From contig JASLCY010000182.1 of assembly GCA_030151925.1 (NCBI GenBank), positions 1 through 11,457 of the forward strand: DNA of 11,457 nucleotides, given 5' to 3'. The DNA is from Oligoflexus sp. GTDB lineage: Bacteria > Bdellovibrionota_B > Oligoflexia > Oligoflexales > Oligoflexaceae. Of the stretch, positions 1 through 7,613 are shown piece by piece (positions within the stretch are counted from its first letter, which is position 1; each line of letters opens with the position of its first letter). The notes beneath the pieces were generated by a model. It made no database searches, was not told the DNA's origin, and saw only the letters and a list, made by a program, of their open reading frames with translations. A program made the translations under genes and the position numbers.

Positions 1-925
1 TACCTGGAAACAACTCGGCAACGAAGAAGAGAATCAAGCCGCCAATGTAAAATTTGAATAACTTGTCGAGACGAGGATAGGCTACTGGCGAATTCATGAA
101 GCTGCGGACGAAGAGGAACGCTGTCAGCGGCGCCATGCAGCTCCAAGCGTTGCCTACCGAATACACATCGAATCCTGCGATATGGGTGATACCCGCTGGG
201 AAATTGATGGCAACCTGGTTTATATAAACATTGGTAGCGACGAATAAAAGATAGTAGAAATACACTGGCTCACGCAGTGTGAAGTACAAGAAGAGGTTGT
301 AGCCGAACATAGCCACGCAGGTACCAAGCATCAAGGCGAGAAAAAAGTTCTCATCCAGGTCTTTTTTGACGAGTTTATTCTGCTCAAGGATTTGCACTTC
401 GAGGTTTACGACGTCCTGCGAGCTGATACGGACGAGATAGTCTCTTGTTTCGTCTTTCCCAATCCTTAGAAAGGCTGAGGGCGTCCGTAGTTCCGTCTCA
501 CTCTGTAATTCCGGTTTGCGTGTTTTATCGCCCGTAATGTCATAAACTTGAATATCAATTGTTGGGTAATTTGTTGCAATAGCCCACTGATCGCTTGAAC
601 TTTGGTTATGCACTCTCAATCGTAGCCAATACACCGAATTCGTATGATCTTGATTGAGGTCTCCCTCGTTCCCAAGTGTGAATGGCAAATGAGTGGCGAG
701 CACATCAGCCGCCGAAAGCTTACCTTTGGTATCAACGGCGTATTCGAACTGACTTTTGAAATGATAAGACCCAACGTCAGTAAGATTAACCACTGCCGGT
801 CGTACTGTCTCTGTCTGCGAGAAAGAAGGCGAGCCAGACGTAAGCGCTACAAGAAAAACCAAAGCCAAGAGCCAGGCGCAAGCTTTAACTCGGGTAAATT
901 TCAGTAAGCGGGTCGGTAGGGTCAC
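1..925 (-). CDS. 7TMR-DISM family membrane sensor, N-terminal part (truncated by window edge)
   Basis: The reading frame is open for 308 codons from a GTG start to the left edge. I chose this GTG because AAAGG lies 7 bases upstream (933-937), an in-frame stop precedes it, and the start opens a signal peptide (basic residues, then hydrophobic about 16-29, possible cleavage near the SFS-Q at 35-37). Residues about 45-185 resemble the periplasmic 7TMR-DISMED2 sensor domain, with the typical W-L-R-L-x-V-x-N at 100-106 and D-I-x-V-Y at 124-128. Several hydrophobic helices follow, about 193-215, 222-241, 261-275 and 292-306, as in the 7TM module of this family. Such receptors usually sense an extracytoplasmic ligand, often carbohydrate, and end in a histidine kinase, GGDEF, phosphatase or adenylate cyclase domain. 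That output part lies outside the window, so the signalling type is unknown. Family assignment is by pattern; the ligand is not inferable. Confidence 0.85.
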   Translation of the reverse strand, partial: MTLPTRLLKFTRVKACAWLLALVFLVALTSGSPSFSQTETVRPAVVNLTDVGSYHFKSQFEYAVDTKGKLSAADVLATHLPFTLGNEGDLNQDHTNSVYWLRLRVHNQSSSDQWAIATNYPTIDIQVYDITGDKTRKPELQSETELRTPSAFLRIGKDETRDYLVRISSQDVVNLEVQILEQNKLVKKDLDENFFLALMLGTCVAMFGYNLFLYFTLREPVYFYYLLFVATNVYINQVAINFPAGITHIAGFDVYSVGNAWSCMAPLTAFLFVRSFMNSPVAYPRLDKLFKFYIGGLILFFVAELFPG

Positions 926-1108: not shown

Positions 1109-1235
1109 TCGCAACGAACATTAAATCCCCCTCAAGTCCTCGCTTAAGAACTCCGATTAAGTATTCAAATACACTGGCAAGGCAACCGATAAATACCTTG
1201 TCAGATGGGGATTCAACTAACAAGGGGGATGCAAA

Positions 1236-1268
1236 ATGAAAAAGAAATTTGCCGCAATGACATTCTAA
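1236..1268 (+). CDS. 10-codon open reading frame (possible leader peptide or gene remnant)
   Basis: The frame encodes MKKKFAAMTF and then TAA. It is notable for its very strong ribosome-binding site, AAGGGGGA (1222-1229), 6 bases before the ATG. It is followed 6 bases after the stop by a GC-rich terminator hairpin. The sequence looks like the beginning of a signal peptide cut short, so it may be the remnant of a small exported protein with its interior deleted. Alternatively it is a leader peptide whose translation is controlled by the upstream pairing element. A second ATG (1205) in another frame would give a 25-codon peptide but lacks a ribosome-binding site. Whether it is translated cannot be told from the sequence. 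Confidence 0.3.
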   Translation: MKKKFAAMTF

Positions 1269-1274
1269 GACACG

Positions 1275-1300
1275 GGGGCCTTTAGGGCCCCTTCTTCTTT
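1275..1300 (+). terminator. Rho-independent terminator, first of two
   Basis: GGGGCC (1275-1280) and GGCCCC (1286-1291) form a 6-bp all-GC stem with loop TTTAG, followed by the pyrimidine-rich tail TTCTTCTTT. It lies just past the stop of the 10-codon frame and would end the plus-strand transcript. The tail is interrupted by C, so efficiency may be moderate. Confidence 0.6.
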
Positions 1301-1314
1301 GTCTGCAATGTAAC

Positions 1315-1349
1315 AAAAGGGGCCTTGAGTAGGCCCCTTTTCTCTTTTT
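1315..1349. terminator. Strong bidirectional terminator between the small RNA unit and the YcaO gene
   Basis: AAAAGGGGCC (1315-1324) and GGCCCCTTTT (1332-1341) form a perfect 10-bp stem with a 7-base loop. On the plus strand it is followed by CTCTTTTT. On the minus strand the stem itself ends in TTTT. It lies 20 bases beyond the stop of the minus-strand YcaO gene, so it can end the HDO-YcaO transcript and also back up the first plus-strand terminator. Its GGGGCC core and sequence resemble the hairpin at 1275-1291. Confidence 0.85.
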
Positions 1350-1360
1350 GGACTGAAATT

Positions 1361-2320
1361 TCAGGGTATCGGATGAACTTCCCTGGCGGTTTCACGGAGC
1401 GAGGCAAACGGACCCTCGAGGTAGCGGCCGAAGTAAAGCGGCAGGGCCTCCTTTGCGGTGGCTTTAGCCACCACGAAGGGCGCGGAGTCCCGGGTCGTAA
1501 TATCCAGGAATTCCACCTTGAGGAAATCGACCTGCGGCCCGGGCTTCGTTTCGCTCGAATTCACGCCGTCAAGCCAACCTCTGAGAATCTGGTGATTGGG
1601 GGGGTAGAGATAAAATTCCGAGTGATAGTACTGCGAGGCTTCATATGTAGGCAGTTCCGTAGGAATATCCTCTCCCCAGAGAAAGCCTAGCCTTTGCAGA
1701 CTCTCGCTTTCGGCCTTACGCTGTGCAGCCGTGAGCTCATACCCCGTGCCGAACCCAAAGACGAGAGGCGCTTCAGGCTTTTTCGGCCAGAGAACGACCA
1801 TGACGACCTTCATAGTCTGCGCGGCGAATGATACTTTTACTTCACCAAATTGATAAGCCTCGCACGTATAAAGGTCCATAAGGGCCGGTGCGAACGACAC
1901 TGGAGACTTGATTCGTTCTGGTTTCCGTCGACCTAGCCAGCTCTCGAGGAGCGCGTGTCGTTCGACAAGTTCCATGGCAGCCCGCTCACAGGCCTTATCC
2001 CATGTCTTATGCAGTGCGATTCCATTCGAACGCGCCGGCCTGTAGAGTTCCGTCGTCTTCCCTGGGAAGATGTCGGGTTGATCGTGCATCTGGATAAGGA
2101 TCGTAAGACGCTCAATGAGTTCGAATTCAGCCGTATGCGACTCGCTATCGCGCGTCACTGAGCTTGCTTGGATAGCTCCAAAGTCAGGATGGCTTGCAGT
2201 CATCCCGAGAAGATTCAAGGTGAGGCCACCGATAGTAACGCTCTCATGGAAGGGCGTCTCGATCGTCCACTCAGCCCTGGGGAGAGGGTCTTTGAGTTTA
2301 TACATAGGCAGCGCTCTCAA
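1361..2320 (-). CDS. YcaO-domain protein (ATP-dependent amide backbone activation)
   Basis: This 319-residue protein has the pattern of the YcaO superfamily, whose members use ATP to activate a peptide amide oxygen, giving azolines, thioamides, amidines or related changes. Three acidic ATP/Mg-binding segments are visible: E67-x2-E70-R71, then the block S98-N-G starting the classic stretch with E117-x2-E120-R121, and E206-x2-Q209-R210. The C-terminus ends H-P-I-P, a short echo of the proline-rich tail common in azoline-forming members. No E1-like or TfuA partner is fused or adjacent. The first possible start is a TTG whose bases overlap the TGA of the HDO gene (TTGA), implying translational coupling. 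An ATG five codons later (2303-2305), with GAGAG eight bases upstream, is equally plausible. The partner HDO gene suggests a two-step tailoring pathway. The substrate is unknown, and a stand-alone function like that of E. coli YcaO cannot be excluded. Confidence 0.85.
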   Translation of the reverse strand: MRALPMYKLKDPLPRAEWTIETPFHESVTIGGLTLNLLGMTASHPDFGAIQASSVTRDSESHTAEFELIERLTILIQMHDQPDIFPGKTTELYRPARSNGIALHKTWDKACERAAMELVERHALLESWLGRRKPERIKSPVSFAPALMDLYTCEAYQFGEVKVSFAAQTMKVVMVVLWPKKPEAPLVFGFGTGYELTAAQRKAESESLQRLGFLWGEDIPTELPTYEASQYYHSEFYLYPPNHQILRGWLDGVNSSETKPGPQVDFLKVEFLDITTRDSAPFVVAKATAKEALPLYFGRYLEGPFASLRETAREVHPIP

Positions 2321-2994
2321 GAGCTTTTCGCGACGCGCACCGCACTGCGCGGAGCCAACGAGAGGAAGAATTTCTTGTGCAACGCAATCGTCTTATCGAC
2401 TACGTTTAGATATTGGTCCTTGTAGATTTTCTCGTCGACTAGATCGAGGATCGCCTGCTCCCACTCCGAAACATGCTCTTTATCGAGCTCAGCGTGATTC
2501 GTGATAACCGTCATCGAATTCTGCTCGTGGCCGCACTTTAAAATCCCCCGGTTAAACTCAGGGCCATAAATCACCGTAAAATACTCGGCAAAGAAAATAT
2601 AAGGCAGATAAAGATAAGGATCGCGGCGGATCGTGTTCTCGATATGCTTCACGAACTCCTTCATCTCATCGGTGACGGCGGGATGAAAGGTTTTGTCGGA
2701 TAATTTCTTCGATACCTTTTGCAGGTCATCGAGCGCCCATTGATCGTGGCCTTGCTCTTCCGGAATCTTATTTTCATAGAATGCATGAAGATCGGGATTT
2801 TTTTGCGAGACATGCGAGGCTAGCTTCAGATGCACTGGCGTGCGATTGACGAGATAATGGATATTCACCAGGAAATCCGAGATACTTTCTGCGGTCGCAG
2901 AGCCGTCGAGTACAGATAGATTGAAAGGGTCTTGAGTCCGAACGTAATCGCGATAGTTTTGGATACGCTTTTTAAGATCTTGGATAAGGGTCAT
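2317..2994 (-). CDS. Heme-oxygenase-like diiron oxidase (HDO) / iron-containing redox enzyme family protein
   Basis: This 225-residue, predicted all-helical protein is of the TenA/PqqC/CADD-like fold. Likely metal ligands are visible in the expected order: E80-x2-H83 (within E-E-Q-G-H-D), E137 in the helix F-F-A-E-Y, and H167-x3-D171-x2-H174. This is the ligand pattern of HDO enzymes such as UndA and CADD, which use two irons and O2 for oxidative cleavage, desaturation or N-oxygenation. I chose the ATG at 2994 because GGGAG (3003-3007) lies 8 bases upstream; the earlier in-frame TTG (3009) overlaps that site. Its stop overlaps the start of the YcaO gene, so the two are co-translated and probably act on one substrate or product. 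There is no signal peptide, so it is cytoplasmic. The reaction is unknown. Thiaminase-like or cofactor-free PqqC-like chemistry is less likely because the metal ligands are intact. Confidence 0.85.
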   Translation of the reverse strand: MTLIQDLKKRIQNYRDYVRTQDPFNLSVLDGSATAESISDFLVNIHYLVNRTPVHLKLASHVSQKNPDLHAFYENKIPEEQGHDQWALDDLQKVSKKLSDKTFHPAVTDEMKEFVKHIENTIRRDPYLYLPYIFFAEYFTVIYGPEFNRGILKCGHEQNSMTVITNHAELDKEHVSEWEQAILDLVDEKIYKDQYLNVVDKTIALHKKFFLSLAPRSAVRVAKSS

Positions 2995-3318: not shown

Positions 3319-4059
3319 TCAAGCATGAATCAAACGGCCGTCCGGCTTCACGCGAATCTGCTCGGTAACCTGCCCGCCTGCGAACTGCGCAGGGTTCTCG
3401 ACCTTCCAATCGCGATCGATGAAGAGTTGAGCCACCGCACCACGGATACGGCGGTTCTCAGACGAATCGTCGAGCAGGAACGGAGCGAGCTTTTCTTTGA
3501 CGGCGTCGGTCTTCTGCGCGATCAGCACTTCGGCCGCCGCATAACGCACGCGCTCGTCGTGATCCTTGAGGAAGTGCGAGATCTGATCGATCTCCTCCGG
3601 CAATTGATAGTCGCGGAGATAGCAGAGGATATCGTAGTTCTTATCCACATCGCTCTGGCTAAACGCGACTTCACCGTAGTTCAGGGCGTTCTTGAGGCAA
3701 TCCACCACGACCTGGTCCTGGCCGAGCTCGTAGAGGATCTTGATGGGCCAAGCGATGCGAGTCGTCGTCTTCAGCCAATCCTTGATGTAAGGGATCGCGG
3801 TATTGCCGTATTTCCGGATGCCCTTCATCGCGAGCTCTTTCTCGCGGGTATCGTTGATGCCGTGCTCGAGGCTGTATTCGAAGCGGGGGAGGAGCGCGGG
3901 GATCGCTTCTTCGGCGTTGTCTACGTTAGCGAGGAACTCGATGGCCGCCCAACGATCGTCTTTGATCGCCTTCGCATTGGTCACGAGCTTCGAAGCCCTT
4001 TGAATGCGGTTCGATTTACGGCCATCAAAATACTCTTTCACATTTCCGAACAAACCCAT
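3319..4059 (-). CDS. HEAT-repeat protein
   Basis: This 246-residue soluble protein lacks a signal peptide or membrane segment. It contains paired-helix HEAT-type repeats, seen best at about 36-60 (W-A-A-I-E-F-L-A), 73-98, 155-183 (H-D-E-R-V-R-Y-A-A-A-E-V-L) and 187-215 (E-N-R-R-I-R-G-A-V-A-Q-L). HEAT repeats form a curved helical solenoid for protein binding and give no catalytic clue; no catalytic motif is visible. The ATG has AGGA 6 bases upstream. The gene follows the NFU-like gene by 57 bases on the same strand and ends at a strong terminator, so the two are probably co-transcribed. A scaffold role connected to iron-sulfur assembly is conceivable, but this is inference from position only. 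Codon use is GC-rich, like the core genes to its right. Confidence 0.85.
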   Translation of the reverse strand: MGLFGNVKEYFDGRKSNRIQRASKLVTNAKAIKDDRWAAIEFLANVDNAEEAIPALLPRFEYSLEHGINDTREKELAMKGIRKYGNTAIPYIKDWLKTTTRIAWPIKILYELGQDQVVVDCLKNALNYGEVAFSQSDVDKNYDILCYLRDYQLPEEIDQISHFLKDHDERVRYAAAEVLIAQKTDAVKEKLAPFLLDDSSENRRIRGAVAQLFIDRDWKVENPAQFAGGQVTEQIRVKPDGRLIHA

Positions 4060-4116: not shown

Positions 4117-4542
4117 TCAATCTAGCACGGGGAAGACGTCGAGCACCGTCTCTTCCCCGAATGTATCCTGCAAGTCCCGCTTCACGCCGTTCATCAGCGT
4201 AATGCGGGAGGATGGGCAACCCTCGCAGCCGCCGCCGAGGCGAACGGTCGCGATCCCGTCCTGGTAGGCTTCGAGACGGGCATAACCCGAATGCAAAGCG
4301 AGCATCTGCGAGACCGGGCCTTCCAGATGGGTCGCGATATCGTGCGCGACGCCTTCGAACTGCGGCGAGGTCAGGGGCACCCCGAAATCGCCCGCCTGGT
4401 CCATGCCGAGCAGATCGCGCATCGCGACTTCGGCCTCTTCCCGTGTAAGGCCGTGCGTGCTGCGACCCGAGGGCTCATGGAGAGCTTGCCAGCTCCCGTC
4501 GAGCTTTTCCTTAAAGTTCACTGCGTGCAAAGACACGGACAT
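4117..4542 (-). CDS. NifU C-terminal-domain (NFU-like) iron-sulfur cluster protein
   Basis: This 141-residue protein has an NFU domain from about residue 62 to the end. It carries the signature G-G-C-E-G-C-P-S-S with cluster-binding C106 and C109, followed by the helix T-L-M-N-G-V-K. In family members this CxxC motif on two subunits holds a [4Fe-4S] cluster for delivery to client enzymes. The N-terminal 60 residues are not a NifU scaffold or A-type domain that I recognise; they are polar and may bind a partner. The start ATG has GGAG 6 bases upstream. The gene heads the minus-strand pair with the HEAT-repeat gene and is divergent from glmU. No other Isc, Suf or Nif gene is in the window. Cluster carriage is known for the family; the client here is unknown. 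Confidence 0.9.
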   Translation of the reverse strand: MSVSLHAVNFKEKLDGSWQALHEPSGRSTHGLTREEAEVAMRDLLGMDQAGDFGVPLTSPQFEGVAHDIATHLEGPVSQMLALHSGYARLEAYQDGIATVRLGGGCEGCPSSRITLMNGVKRDLQDTFGEETVLDVFPVLD

Positions 4543-4730: not shown

Positions 4731-5759
4731 ATGCCGAGTCAAAATGATACTGTGGCTGCCCTGGTTCTTGCCGCTGGTAAAGGTACCCGTATGAAAAGCC
4801 AATTACCCAAGGTTTTGCATCCCTTATGCGGCGTGCCGATGCTCGGACATGTGATGCATACGCTATCCAAGGCCGGCATTCAGGACAAGTGCATCGTAGT
4901 CGGCGGCGAAGTCGAACTACTTCAAAATTATCTCCGTAGTTTTGGACCTCTGACCTTCACTCTCCAGCGCGATCGCCTCGGAACCGGCGAAGCCGTGGCT
5001 TGCGGAGGCTTCGGCTTCAAAGGCGTCAAACCGCCTAGCTTTGCGAGCGGCAGCCTCCTCGCCGGCGAACCGATCGACAGCAAGTACATCCTGATCTGCG
5101 CGGGCGATACTCCGGCCATGGACGCCGAGGTGATCGCGGCCTTCGTGAAGTCGTCGCTGCAGAAGGGCTCGAGACTCGCGGTCCTCGGCATGAACCATCC
5201 CGAACCCAAGGGCTACGGCCGCCTTATCTGCAAGGCCGATAACCAGCTCCTTCGCATCGTCGAGGAGAAGGACGCGAGCGAAGCCGAGAAGAAGATTCAG
5301 CTCTGCAACTCGGGAGTGATCTTCGCCGAGAAGGACCACCTCTTCTCGCTCCTCGGCTCCCTCACGCAAAGCAATGCCCAGCGCGAATACTACCTCACCG
5401 ACTGCTTCGCCCTGAGCCTGGAGCGCGGCGTCCCCGCCGATGTTTGGGCGACCGACGATTACCATTCGTTCGACGGCGTCAACGATCGCCATCAGCTTTC
5501 ACAACTCGAAGGTCGCCTCCTGCAGAAGATCCGTCGCCGCTGGATGGCGGACGGCGTGACTTTCCTAATGGCGCCTTCCACTTACATCGAAGCTGATGTT
5601 ACGATAGGGGCCGATACCGTGATCGGTCCGCACGCGAGTTTGATAGGCAAGACGAAAATCGGAGCAAACTGCGAGATCGGTAGCCATGTCGCCTTGAAAG
5701 ATGTAATGATCCCTGATGGCACTCGCATCCCCGCGGGCACCGTCCGCGGCTTCTCATAA
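4731..5759 (+). CDS. glmU: Short GlmU: N-acetylglucosamine-1-phosphate uridyltransferase lacking the acetyltransferase domain
   Basis: The protein should join UTP and GlcNAc-1-phosphate to make UDP-GlcNAc, the precursor of peptidoglycan and lipopolysaccharide. Residues about 8-255 form the uridyltransferase domain: nucleotide-binding A14-A-G-K-G-T-R-M21 with K27, the L-G-T-G segment at 83-86, metal-binding D126 in A-G-D-T-P, E178/E179 in V-E-E-K-D-A, and N251 in V-N-D-R. Then about 60 residues of left-handed beta-helix hexapeptides (I-E-A-D-V-T-I-G-A-D) end with P-A-G-T-V-R-G. The total is 342 residues, against about 456 for bifunctional GlmU. The conserved acetyltransferase part (the later beta-helix with its catalytic Arg, Lys and His) is absent, and the downstream 21 bases leave no room for a frameshifted remainder. 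A loop of about 15 extra residues lies at 97-117. Acetylation must come from another protein, or the enzyme has a related nucleotidyltransferase role. It precedes glmS in the same unit. Confidence 0.9.
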   Translation: MPSQNDTVAALVLAAGKGTRMKSQLPKVLHPLCGVPMLGHVMHTLSKAGIQDKCIVVGGEVELLQNYLRSFGPLTFTLQRDRLGTGEAVACGGFGFKGVKPPSFASGSLLAGEPIDSKYILICAGDTPAMDAEVIAAFVKSSLQKGSRLAVLGMNHPEPKGYGRLICKADNQLLRIVEEKDASEAEKKIQLCNSGVIFAEKDHLFSLLGSLTQSNAQREYYLTDCFALSLERGVPADVWATDDYHSFDGVNDRHQLSQLEGRLLQKIRRRWMADGVTFLMAPSTYIEADVTIGADTVIGPHASLIGKTKIGANCEIGSHVALKDVMIPDGTRIPAGTVRGFS

Positions 5760-5780
5760 CAAGAAGGAACAAGCGCTTAT

Positions 5781-7613
5781 ATGTGTGGAATCGTTGGTTA
5801 TACCGGCCCTCGTCCGTGCCTTGGCATCGTCTTCGACGGACTTAAGAAATTGGAATACCGTGGCTACGACTCCGCCGGCATCGCTGTCCTCGACAAAGGC
5901 GAGATCGCGACGATCAAGGAATCGGGGAAACTCGACAACCTCAAACCAGCGATAGCGCGCCTTCCGCAAGAAGCCCATGTCGGTATCGGGCATACACGTT
6001 GGGCGACTCACGGCCTGCCGACTCGCGAAAACGCGCACCCGCATGAGTCCGAGCACATCGCTTTGATCCACAACGGCATCATCGAGAACTATAAAGAGCT
6101 CAAGGAAGAACTGCTTTCCAAGGGCGTACGCTTCCGTTCGGAAACCGATACCGAGGTCGTGGCCCACCTCGTCTCGCAGGAGATCAAGTCGGAGCCTCGC
6201 CCCATCGAAGCCCTCAAGAACGTCATCAAACGCCTTGAAGGCGCCTTCTCGCTTGCCTTCATCGTCGACAAGGTCCCGGATAAGATCTACGTCGCGAAAC
6301 AAGGCTCGCCGCTCGTCGTCGGTCTCGGCAAGGGCGAGACCTTCTTCGGCAGCGATGTGACGACCTTCGTGAACTTCACGCAGAAGGCCGTGTTCCTCCA
6401 GGACGGCGAGATCGCCGAGGTCAGCCCGAGCGGCCTCAAGCTCTGGGATAGGAAGGGCGCTGAGCTGCCGATCAAAACCACGCTCATCCAGTGGACGCCC
6501 GGCAGCGCGGATAAACAAGGCTTCCGCCACTACATGCTCAAGGAGATCCACGAGCAGCCGCGCGTGGTCTCGGCTACCACCCAAGCCTTCGTCAAGGACA
6601 ACAAGCTCGACCACGAGGCTCTCGGCCTCGACAAGATCGACTTCAAGAAGCTGCGCACGATCCACATCGTGGCCTGCGGCACCGCGTACTATGCGGGCAT
6701 GGTGGCGAAGTACTTCCTCGAGCCGCTGCTCGACGTCGCCGTGAACGTCGAGCTCGCGAGCGAATTCCGCTACCGCGAGCCTTATCTCCATAAGAACGGC
6801 GAAGCCCTCCTCATCGCGATCTCGCAATCGGGCGAGACCGCCGACACGCTCGCTTGCGTGAAGCACGCGAAGGAGAAGGGCGCGCAGATCTTCAGCATCT
6901 GCAACGTGGCCTATTCGAGCATCCATCGGGAGAGCGACTCGTCTATCCTCATGAAGGCGGGTCCTGAGATCGGCGTGGCTTCCACCAAGGCTTTCACGTC
7001 GCAGATCCTCTGCGCTTATCTCTGGGCCCTGGGCGCCGCGCAAAAGCTCGGCCGCATCGCAGACTCCGAGATCACCGAGATCATCCAGGACCTGAAGGCC
7101 CTGCCTCCTTATCTCGACCAGGCCCTCAATGCCGAAGAGCACCTCGTGGACCTCGCGGGCAAGCTCTATAATTACCCGAACTTCCTCTACATCGGCCGCG
7201 GCATGAGCTCTATCATCGCCTATGAAGGCGCGCTGAAGCTGAAGGAGATTTCCTATATCCACGCCGAAGGTTATGCGGCCGGCGAGCTGAAGCACGGCCC
7301 TATCGCCCTCGTGGACAAGAACATCCCTATCGTCGCCATCACCCCTAAGGACCACTATCACGAGAAGACTCTCTCCAATATCGAAGAAGTCTGCGCGCGT
7401 GAAGGCCAAGTCTATGGTATAGGTGATGATAAGGATCAACGTCTGAAAGACGTTTGTGCGCAGGTCATCCCCTGCCCGCAGGTGAAGAACCCCGTTTTCC
7501 AAACAATCCTATCTACCGTTCCTGTGCAGTTCCTCGCGTATCATATCGCGGTGAAACGCGGTACGGACGTCGATCAGCCGCGTAACCTCGCGAAGTCGGT
7601 GACCGTGGAATAA
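5781..7613 (+). CDS. glmS: Glutamine-fructose-6-phosphate aminotransferase (isomerizing)
   Basis: GlmS converts fructose-6-phosphate and glutamine to glucosamine-6-phosphate and glutamate, the committed step of amino-sugar synthesis in the cytoplasm. All 610 residues fit the usual length. The N-terminal Ntn glutaminase domain starts M-C-G-I-V-G with nucleophile Cys2 and carries G-H-T-R73-W-A-T-H77-G and H-N-G-I-I-E-N-Y (97-104). Two SIS sugar-isomerase domains follow: the first holds A-C-G-T (298-301), S348-Q-S-G-E-T353 and S401-T-K; the second holds E-G-A-L-K-L-K-E and A-E-G-Y. The C-terminus ends N-L-A-K-S-V-T-V-E, typical of the family. The ATG lies 21 bases after the glmU stop; AAGGA is 12 bases upstream, a rather long spacing. 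No glmS ribozyme precedes it, and there is no room for one. Expression is probably coupled to glmU. Confidence 0.97.
   Translation: MCGIVGYTGPRPCLGIVFDGLKKLEYRGYDSAGIAVLDKGEIATIKESGKLDNLKPAIARLPQEAHVGIGHTRWATHGLPTRENAHPHESEHIALIHNGIIENYKELKEELLSKGVRFRSETDTEVVAHLVSQEIKSEPRPIEALKNVIKRLEGAFSLAFIVDKVPDKIYVAKQGSPLVVGLGKGETFFGSDVTTFVNFTQKAVFLQDGEIAEVSPSGLKLWDRKGAELPIKTTLIQWTPGSADKQGFRHYMLKEIHEQPRVVSATTQAFVKDNKLDHEALGLDKIDFKKLRTIHIVACGTAYYAGMVAKYFLEPLLDVAVNVELASEFRYREPYLHKNGEALLIAISQSGETADTLACVKHAKEKGAQIFSICNVAYSSIHRESDSSILMKAGPEIGVASTKAFTSQILCAYLWALGAAQKLGRIADSEITEIIQDLKALPPYLDQALNAEEHLVDLAGKLYNYPNFLYIGRGMSSIIAYEGALKLKEISYIHAEGYAAGELKHGPIALVDKNIPIVAITPKDHYHEKTLSNIEEVCAREGQVYGIGDDKDQRLKDVCAQVIPCPQVKNPVFQTILSTVPVQFLAYHIAVKRGTDVDQPRNLAKSVTVE

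Follow-up and report, generated by a model that had tools for sequence, protein, structure and literature searches.

The 11,457-nt stretch of Oligoflexus sp. DNA analysed here (the window) carries a 10-codon micro-ORF beside genes for a stand-alone YcaO protein, a heme-oxygenase-like diiron oxidase (HDO) and a 7TMR-DISM sensor. We put a probability of about 0.62 on the reading that these genes form a RiPP pathway with an ultra-short precursor, whose product the linked sensor probably reads as a signal. Most relatives of the set, from predatory and soil bacteria, keep the enzyme genes, a sensor kinase gene and the micro-ORF in one place, a pattern suggestive of a modified peptide signal of a kind not seen before. 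That the micro-ORF is a real gene and forms one system with the gene set is almost certain, and the steps beyond that are graded below. An earlier note on this DNA had described the HDO-YcaO pair as having no visible precursor; this was wrong, as the following features show.

2..925, minus strand: N-terminal part of a 7TMR-DISM sensor (PF07696 and PF07695), the proposed receptor; its output domain lies beyond the window edge
1222..1229, plus strand: Shine-Dalgarno-like AAGGGGGA, 6 nt 5' of the micro-ORF start
1236..1268, plus strand: micro-ORF, ATGAAAAAGAAATTTGCCGCAATGACATTCTAA, reading MKKKFAAMTF and a stop, proposed ultra-short RiPP precursor, one of 35 homologous micro-ORFs
1274..1292, plus strand: terminator-like hairpin, 5 nt 3' of the micro-ORF stop
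1315..1341, plus strand: another terminator-like hairpin, located where the micro-ORF and the YcaO gene converge
1361..2305, minus strand: stand-alone YcaO, 314 aa, with an alternative TTG start at 2320
2317..2994, minus strand: HDO, 225 aa
3266..3295, minus strand: terminator-like hairpin upstream of HDO

Arrangement of the genes in the window

The micro-ORF lies 92 bp beyond the YcaO stop on the opposite strand and 310 bp from the start of the 7TMR-DISM gene, and the stretch holding it and its hairpins (1216-1352) folds with a z of -3.77. The pair had been described as insulated by terminators on both sides. Upstream of HDO a minus-strand site (3295-3266) is indeed present, which is probably the transcript end of the HEAT-repeat gene, but on the YcaO side the hairpins at 1274-1292 and 1315-1341 have their T-rich tail on the plus strand, directly 3' of the micro-ORF stop, and therefore more likely end the micro-ORF transcript; the one at 1315-1341 could also end that of YcaO. 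Between 900 and 4800 we counted eight terminator-like sites, against 4.4 (sd 2.1) in shuffles, so that any single site is weak evidence. The reported overlap of the HDO TGA with the YcaO start holds only for the TTG start at 2320, whereas the likelier ATG at 2305 is 11 nt past the HDO stop. No known structured RNA was found in the window by Rfam match at gathering score.

Some features lie apart from the cassette. The GlmU-like protein encoded at 4731-5759 (+, 342 aa) matches only about the first 310 of the 452 positions of bifunctional GlmU; most of the C-terminal acetyltransferase part is absent, and an intact glmS adjoins. Its product shares 81% and 80% identity with GlmS of two other Oligoflexus sp. 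genomes, G001 (carrying locus L001) and G003 (carrying L003), in keeping with an Oligoflexus-like host. Antisense to glmS runs a 582-aa open frame (5754-7502, -), which GC-rich codon use has most likely produced as a shadow ORF. A 141-aa protein with a C-terminal NifU domain (PF01106, 46 bits) is encoded at 4117-4542 (-), upstream of the HEAT-repeat gene at 3319-4059 (-).

A conserved micro-ORF beside the enzyme genes

Micro-ORFs of this kind were first seen in the gaps between a GNAT gene and the next enzyme gene. In all, 35 homologues were collected, 32 in cis at the 40 distinct YcaO loci and three on other contigs of the same genomes, beside GNAT or HDO (L058 for L019, L059 for L001 and L064 for L008). 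A strict expression found 32 of them; the other three (L090, L093 and L094) came from a less strict inspection of the position where a micro-ORF was expected. About 20 gaps had been read in drawing up the expression, so the 32 matches do not count as independent of it. The encoded peptides are 9, 10 or 12 aa long, within the 12-aa bound of ultra-short precursors, and 34 of the 35 are distinct, among them MKKKFAQLSF, MKKKFALLSF, MKKQFALICF, MKKRFALGTL and MKKFALGCF.

When the peptides were aligned from the right, the penultimate residue was Ser, Cys or Thr in all 35 (14, 13 and 8, respectively), Ala stood at -5 in 34, and Phe or Tyr at -6 in 35 of 35. Within the Ala codon, pairwise differences amounted to 0.00 at the first base, 0.06 at the second and 0.70 at the third. 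The flanks showed an identity of 0.26, the random level, but 0.39 in the Shine-Dalgarno stretch, and a Shine-Dalgarno-like core preceded 32 of the 34 scored micro-ORFs (the window's included) versus about 15 expected from base shuffles. At the level of sequence, then, the conservation is that of a coding gene, which is presumably translated; a gene-encoded precursor conserved beside tailoring enzymes is the arrangement of a RiPP locus, with the peptide itself as the putative modified product.

Searching whole genomes gave a consistent result. Over 368 genomes from the phylum to which G006 belongs, the strict pattern matched seven times, always in cassettes and nowhere else, while the reversed control gave none; of the 17 genomes there that have YcaO it recovered only seven, because variants such as MRRKFALYSF escape it. 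Ten chosen genomes yielded six matches, all in cassettes. With a looser pattern, 377 genomes of Myxococcota, the phylum of G005, gave eight matches, six of them in cassettes, and one in the reversed control; the remaining two were rejected as chance, one being out of frame (G293) and the other antisense to another ORF (G270). Since the patterns were drawn from cassettes, the informative point is the near-absence of matches outside them. Shuffling the window 400 times produced one chance hit.

Eight YcaO loci have no micro-ORF in cis. The contigs of two (L086 and L092) end at YcaO, and none was in view at L002, L053 and L096; with a YcaO profile score of only 64 bits, the last of these possibly falls outside the clade. 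In the genome G002, YcaO and a 7TMR-DISM gene were present and neither HDO nor a micro-ORF was found, though a variant could escape the pattern there, as that of G001 did.

The HDO and YcaO enzymes

HDO matches PF14518 with 33.2 bits (cut-off 28.9). The intact E-x2-H, E and H-x3-D-x2-H ligands seen earlier were upheld by an alignment of 20 sequences including the window's, in which E80, H83, E137, H167, D171 and H174 are invariant; with the heme-oxygenase-like fold and these six carboxylate and His ligands, the protein is predicted to hold a diiron site and turn over O2. YcaO matches PF02624 with 53.5 bits (cut-off 25.7), and its acidic ATP-binding residues likewise proved conserved, E62, E65, E112, E115, E201 and Q204 being invariant in 40 sequences including the window's (one short hit of 41 was excluded). 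Family match, conserved acidic ATP/Mg residues and fold place it in the YcaO superfamily. The AlphaFold models were confident, with pLDDT values of 93.0 for HDO and 93.9 for YcaO. A TAA flagged in the HDO of G001 was taken as the normal stop, as the ORF ends exactly at the match end, and neither HDO nor YcaO gave a tblastn match in the plasmid collection that would point to a plasmid-borne origin.

The adjacency of the two genes, which the earlier note proposed to look for in other genomes, is conserved: HDO occurs in the same locus in 23 of the 40 distinct YcaO loci, so the pairing is not chance, and the rare co-occurrence that would have spoken against it was not found.

Across the alignment the YcaO family lacks the C-terminal PxPxP tail of TOMM YcaOs; its members end in HPI[AP] or close variants, HPIP in the window and HPIA in most. 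Among the window genes scanned there was no E1-like/ocin-ThiF, RRE or TfuA partner. An all-against-all comparison of 504 neighbour ORFs, which looked for recurrent families, returned no partner family of these kinds in more than four loci and no recurrent TfuA candidate. The absence of such a partner counts against the RiPP-signal reading.

Composition of the cassette in relatives

A scan of species genomes based on the YcaO alignment yielded 21 loci, and three phyla were searched as well. After duplicate contig records (L051, L082, L083, L085, L088, L095 and the short loci) were removed, 42 distinct loci remained, with 3 to 18.5 kb of sequence in view at each: 40 with YcaO, the window included, and L058 and L059, in which GNAT or HDO lies apart from YcaO. 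In the three phyla, YcaO proteins of the clade (E <= 1e-15) were found in 5 of 58 genomes, 17 of 368, and 8 of 377, the last set being sampled from a larger phylum; the clade is thus patchy and rare.

Counting genes scoring above 50 bits over the 42 loci, we found GNAT in 26, HDO in 25 and a B12-binding radical SAM protein in eight; the kinase and radical SAM profiles were built from members of the cassettes that they then scored. Among the 504 neighbour ORFs of at least 80 aa, the only families in more than four loci were YcaO, GNAT, HDO, the histidine kinase, response regulator and 7TMR-DISM sensors, the giant kinase and the B12-radical SAM protein. The pair is thus not without a known partner, as had been thought: sensor kinases and GNAT accompany it in relatives, and in the window a 7TMR-DISM sensor is encoded as far as its N-terminal part. 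At L057, GNAT, micro-ORF, YcaO and a kinase were present, with no HDO or radical SAM gene in view.

GNAT was absent beside the cassettes of the window, L003, L049, L050 and L059. Distant GNATs of Oligoflexus (L030-L032, 43-53 bits) were considered as acting in trans and rejected, as they also occur in the cassette-free genomes G042, G060, G063 and G064; no similar micro-ORF lies within 3 kb around them. Further distant relatives of the cassette GNAT are encoded in three related genomes (L061, 7005-7601, -; L060, 7703-8302, -; L062, 7182-7784, -), near genes that by eye resemble small response regulators and pilus genes.

HDO and the B12-radical SAM protein never share a locus (P about 2e-4 if the loci are independent), and both types of cassette occur in all three sampled phyla. 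Four of five radical SAM genomes searched had no HDO of the cassette family at all; G006 has a radical SAM cassette plus a second, distant HDO elsewhere. A precedent for such an exchange is chlorophyll synthesis, where BchE, a B12-radical SAM protein, and AcsF, a diiron enzyme, perform the same oxidation. By this analogy the two may be equivalent in the cassettes, though a different reaction is possible. On the YcaO tree, in which L001 and L019 were scored as HDO though their HDO sits on another contig, six HDO/radical SAM changes are needed; well-supported branches force only one, and 75-88 of 500 shuffles were as low, so that repeated swapping is suggested at most.

Further observations concern single loci. 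In L001, L002 and L003, YcaO adjoins an enoyl-CoA hydratase-like gene, the same in all three, and two more genes that by eye resemble those of the methylcitrate pathway; HDO lies alongside in one of these genomes and is absent beside YcaO in two. Next to the solitary YcaO of L019, in a Polyangiaceae genome, a MukB-like protein (PF04310, PF16330) is encoded at 8985-13643 (-). The L020 record is titled Lysobacteraceae, in disagreement with the placement of its genome, G759, in the phylum of G006 (record titled Bacteriovoracaceae).

Linked sensors

AgrD/AgrC and ComX/ComP are systems in which a modified short peptide is encoded beside its sensor kinase. Likewise, 33 of the 42 loci carry a sensor gene, the window's being cut before the output domain. 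Three types occur and never share a locus: a multi-TM-type histidine kinase in 16 loci, with a response regulator at 15 of them; a giant Ser/Thr-kinase-type protein in 13, fully annotated in L009 as Pkinase-AAA-GAF-HK-RR and cut off in L004 and L052; and the 7TMR-DISM sensor in four, cut off in the window. A profile made from eight cassette histidine kinases scored seven kinases outside that set at 270-566 bits and other kinases in the same loci at about 60 at most, a gap that makes the cassette kinases look cassette-specific.

The 7TMR-DISM gene lies beside the micro-ORF in four of the five Oligoflexus-side loci (the window, L003, L049 and L059, not L050). The only hit of the window's sensor in G001 and in G003 is the kinase beside their HDO, and in G001 HDO, micro-ORF and kinase stay together though YcaO is on another contig. 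In G039 the best of 17 hits is the one beside an HDO-YcaO pair, while the second such pair of that genome (L050) has no adjoining 7TMR-DISM gene; in G002, which is without HDO, no micro-ORF lies near the best-scoring hit.

Two observations weigh against a signal. The giant kinases may be cytosolic, and the dedicated exporter or processing protease of pheromone systems was not seen, no such family recurring among the 504 neighbour ORFs (exporters of mixed families would be missed).

Alternative explanations

Most characterised RiPPs are not signals, and the micro-ORF could encode a real precursor of an antibiotic, metallophore or cofactor, with the kinases merely controlling production. RiPP clusters can carry regulators, as does a Bacteroidales cluster with a histidine kinase and a response regulator, at least in the portion of that work drawn on here (PMC10352776). 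We regard this explanation as unlikely, though it is the strongest of the alternatives: sensors accompany 33 of the 42 loci, and at L059 the 7TMR-DISM gene stays beside the micro-ORF though YcaO is elsewhere. Moreover, among the 504 neighbour ORFs of at least 80 aa there was no recurrent family for immunity, transport, peptidase activity or metal uptake, although families varying from locus to locus would be missed in such a comparison. PADLOC gave no hit for the window's HDO and YcaO, one GNAT (L017) and one 7TMR-DISM kinase (L003), and a 32-bit hit (PDC-M51A) for the radical SAM protein of L010; a defence system was discarded on the same result.

It is improbable that the micro-ORF is instead an attenuator leader peptide for downstream enzyme genes, with HDO and YcaO acting on a metabolite or protein. 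Such a role would suit the 30 of 34 scored loci in which the micro-ORF precedes an enzyme gene on the same strand, and the often strong folding of the 75 nt that follow it (about -6 to -42 kcal/mol, without a shuffle control). However, it is convergent to YcaO-HDO in the window, divergent from HDO in L050 and L049, and divergent from 7TMR-DISM and HDO in L059, and for this reason it cannot attenuate the enzymes of these four loci; in L049 it is upstream of the 7TMR-DISM kinase only. The fixed penultimate Ser, Cys or Thr is moreover reached through different codon families (TGC, AGC, TCA, ACA) with positions -3 and -4 left free, which fits a substrate better than a stall codon, and a precursor covers every arrangement of the micro-ORF. 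Least probable is a chance match beside enzymes acting on a metabolite or large protein. Stand-alone YcaOs working without a RiPP precursor do exist (the methanogen and E. coli types), and their solved folds match the YcaO model too, but the pattern counts given above (seven of seven strict matches in cassettes over 368 genomes, six of eight looser ones over 377, one hit per 400 window shuffles) speak against chance. A metabolite-only YcaO with GNAT, cyclising N-acyl-amino acids, had been a candidate as well and became superfluous once the micro-ORF was found in the intergenic gaps.

Proposed pathway

In the RiPP-signal pathway that we favour, the 10-codon gene would make MKKKFAAMTF, whose basic-aromatic head (MKK[KR][FY]A) would serve as a minimal recognition segment. 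YcaO, using ATP, would activate the amide before the penultimate Ser, Thr or Cys, most likely closing an azoline; these are the residue types cyclised by YcaO azoline-formers. HDO, with iron and O2, would then oxidise the product, for example by desaturation or hydroxylation, with the B12-radical SAM enzyme standing in for it in some relatives, and GNAT, where present, may acylate the N-terminus or a lysine. The product would leave or act in the cell, and the linked sensor, 7TMR-DISM in the window and a histidine kinase/response regulator pair or the giant Ser/Thr-hybrid kinase elsewhere, would read it as a pheromone-like signal.

The steps differ in strength. Conservation, gene arrangement, protein families and folds are what the genomes and models provide, and translation of the micro-ORF, the YcaO action, oxidation, GNAT step and signalling are inferred from them. 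That the peptide is the substrate of YcaO and HDO is quite probable, and the earlier proposal that the pair tailors one substrate in sequence is supported to that extent, the conserved adjacent micro-ORF offering a candidate peptide. A signal read by the linked sensor seems a somewhat better than even bet for the product, and an azoline at the penultimate residue, rather than a thioamide or another modification, has about an even chance.

Comparison with known systems

The HDO-YcaO pairing, which could not previously be placed in a characterised pathway, has a precedent in the thiovarsolins of Streptomyces varsoviensis, made from VarA with the YcaO VarY, the TfuA protein VarT and the heme-oxygenase-like VarO (PMC6511847). 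Without varO the dehydrogenated products were lost; N-acetylation of the products is attributed by the authors to an enzyme of the host (PMC6511847). As far as that account is drawn on here, the likeness is the joint use of YcaO and a heme-oxygenase-like enzyme in one RiPP pathway; the differences are TfuA as YcaO partner, a precursor with leader and repeated cores, and the actinobacterial host. The adjacent TfuA expected of a thioamide RiPP was not found among the window genes scanned. A heme-oxygenase-like gene has also been noted in such clusters of Sinorhizobium, according to a part of another report (PMC8120280).

Ultra-short precursors have parallels as well. The leaderless 7-codon MccA of microcin C7 is processed by the chemistry of the ThiF-like MccB into a Trojan-horse antibiotic with exporter and immunity. 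The ultra-short precursor is common to both systems, and the ThiF-like MccB, exporter and immunity are features of microcin C7. Biarylitides and myxarylin derive from a genetically encoded 5-aa precursor with a two-residue leader, one of them myxobacterial (PMC12951456). They share with the present system an ultra-short gene-encoded precursor and an occurrence in a myxobacterium; they differ in using a P450 cross-link, a protease and an N-methyltransferase, and the sections of that paper relied on here describe no YcaO, HDO or GNAT. Neither a P450 nor a ThiF-like MccB was found beside the micro-ORF among the window genes scanned, and no recurrent candidate appeared in the relatives.

Among other YcaO proteins, McbD of microcin B17, which forms azolines, was solved in the McbBCD complex, and no such partner was seen for the window YcaO; azoline-forming YcaOs of the McbD type have the PxPxP tail, in place of which the window family has HPI[AP] or close variants. 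The daptide YcaO DapY acts at the peptide C-terminus (PMC12338566). There, in the part of the work used here, the C-terminal Thr is first made an amine by other enzymes, and the PxPxP motif and other partners are present.

The AgrD/AgrC and ComX/ComP systems differ by dedicated processing or export and by other chemistry, and to our knowledge no two-component peptide pheromone system uses YcaO plus HDO. Full-text searches of open-access papers, which leave subscription papers mostly uncovered, returned no description matching this system, and as far as checked the micro-precursor, the GNAT, the B12-radical SAM alternative and the linked sensors are new.

Implications

Taken at its widest, the cassette may define a new class of pheromones in Bdellovibrionota, Oligoflexus relatives and Myxococcota, a view to which we give even odds: a YcaO-cyclised peptide of 9-12 codons, completed by the O2-dependent HDO or, alternatively, the anaerobic B12-radical SAM enzyme, capped by GNAT, with residues -3 and -4 setting strain specificity, would be detected by the type of kinase that each lineage has coupled to the cassette. 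The precursor would then be among the shortest ribosomal peptide precursors known, processed by YcaO without the usual leader or partner protein, and the system an attractive minimal one for peptide engineering. The alternation of HDO and B12-radical SAM in the same gene set would lend itself to comparing two routes by which one type of peptide is tailored. Because gene finders pass over genes of 10 codons, comparable systems may have escaped notice elsewhere. If the signal reading is true, Bdellovibrionota and Myxococcota would gain a candidate cell-cell signal with a co-encoded sensor.
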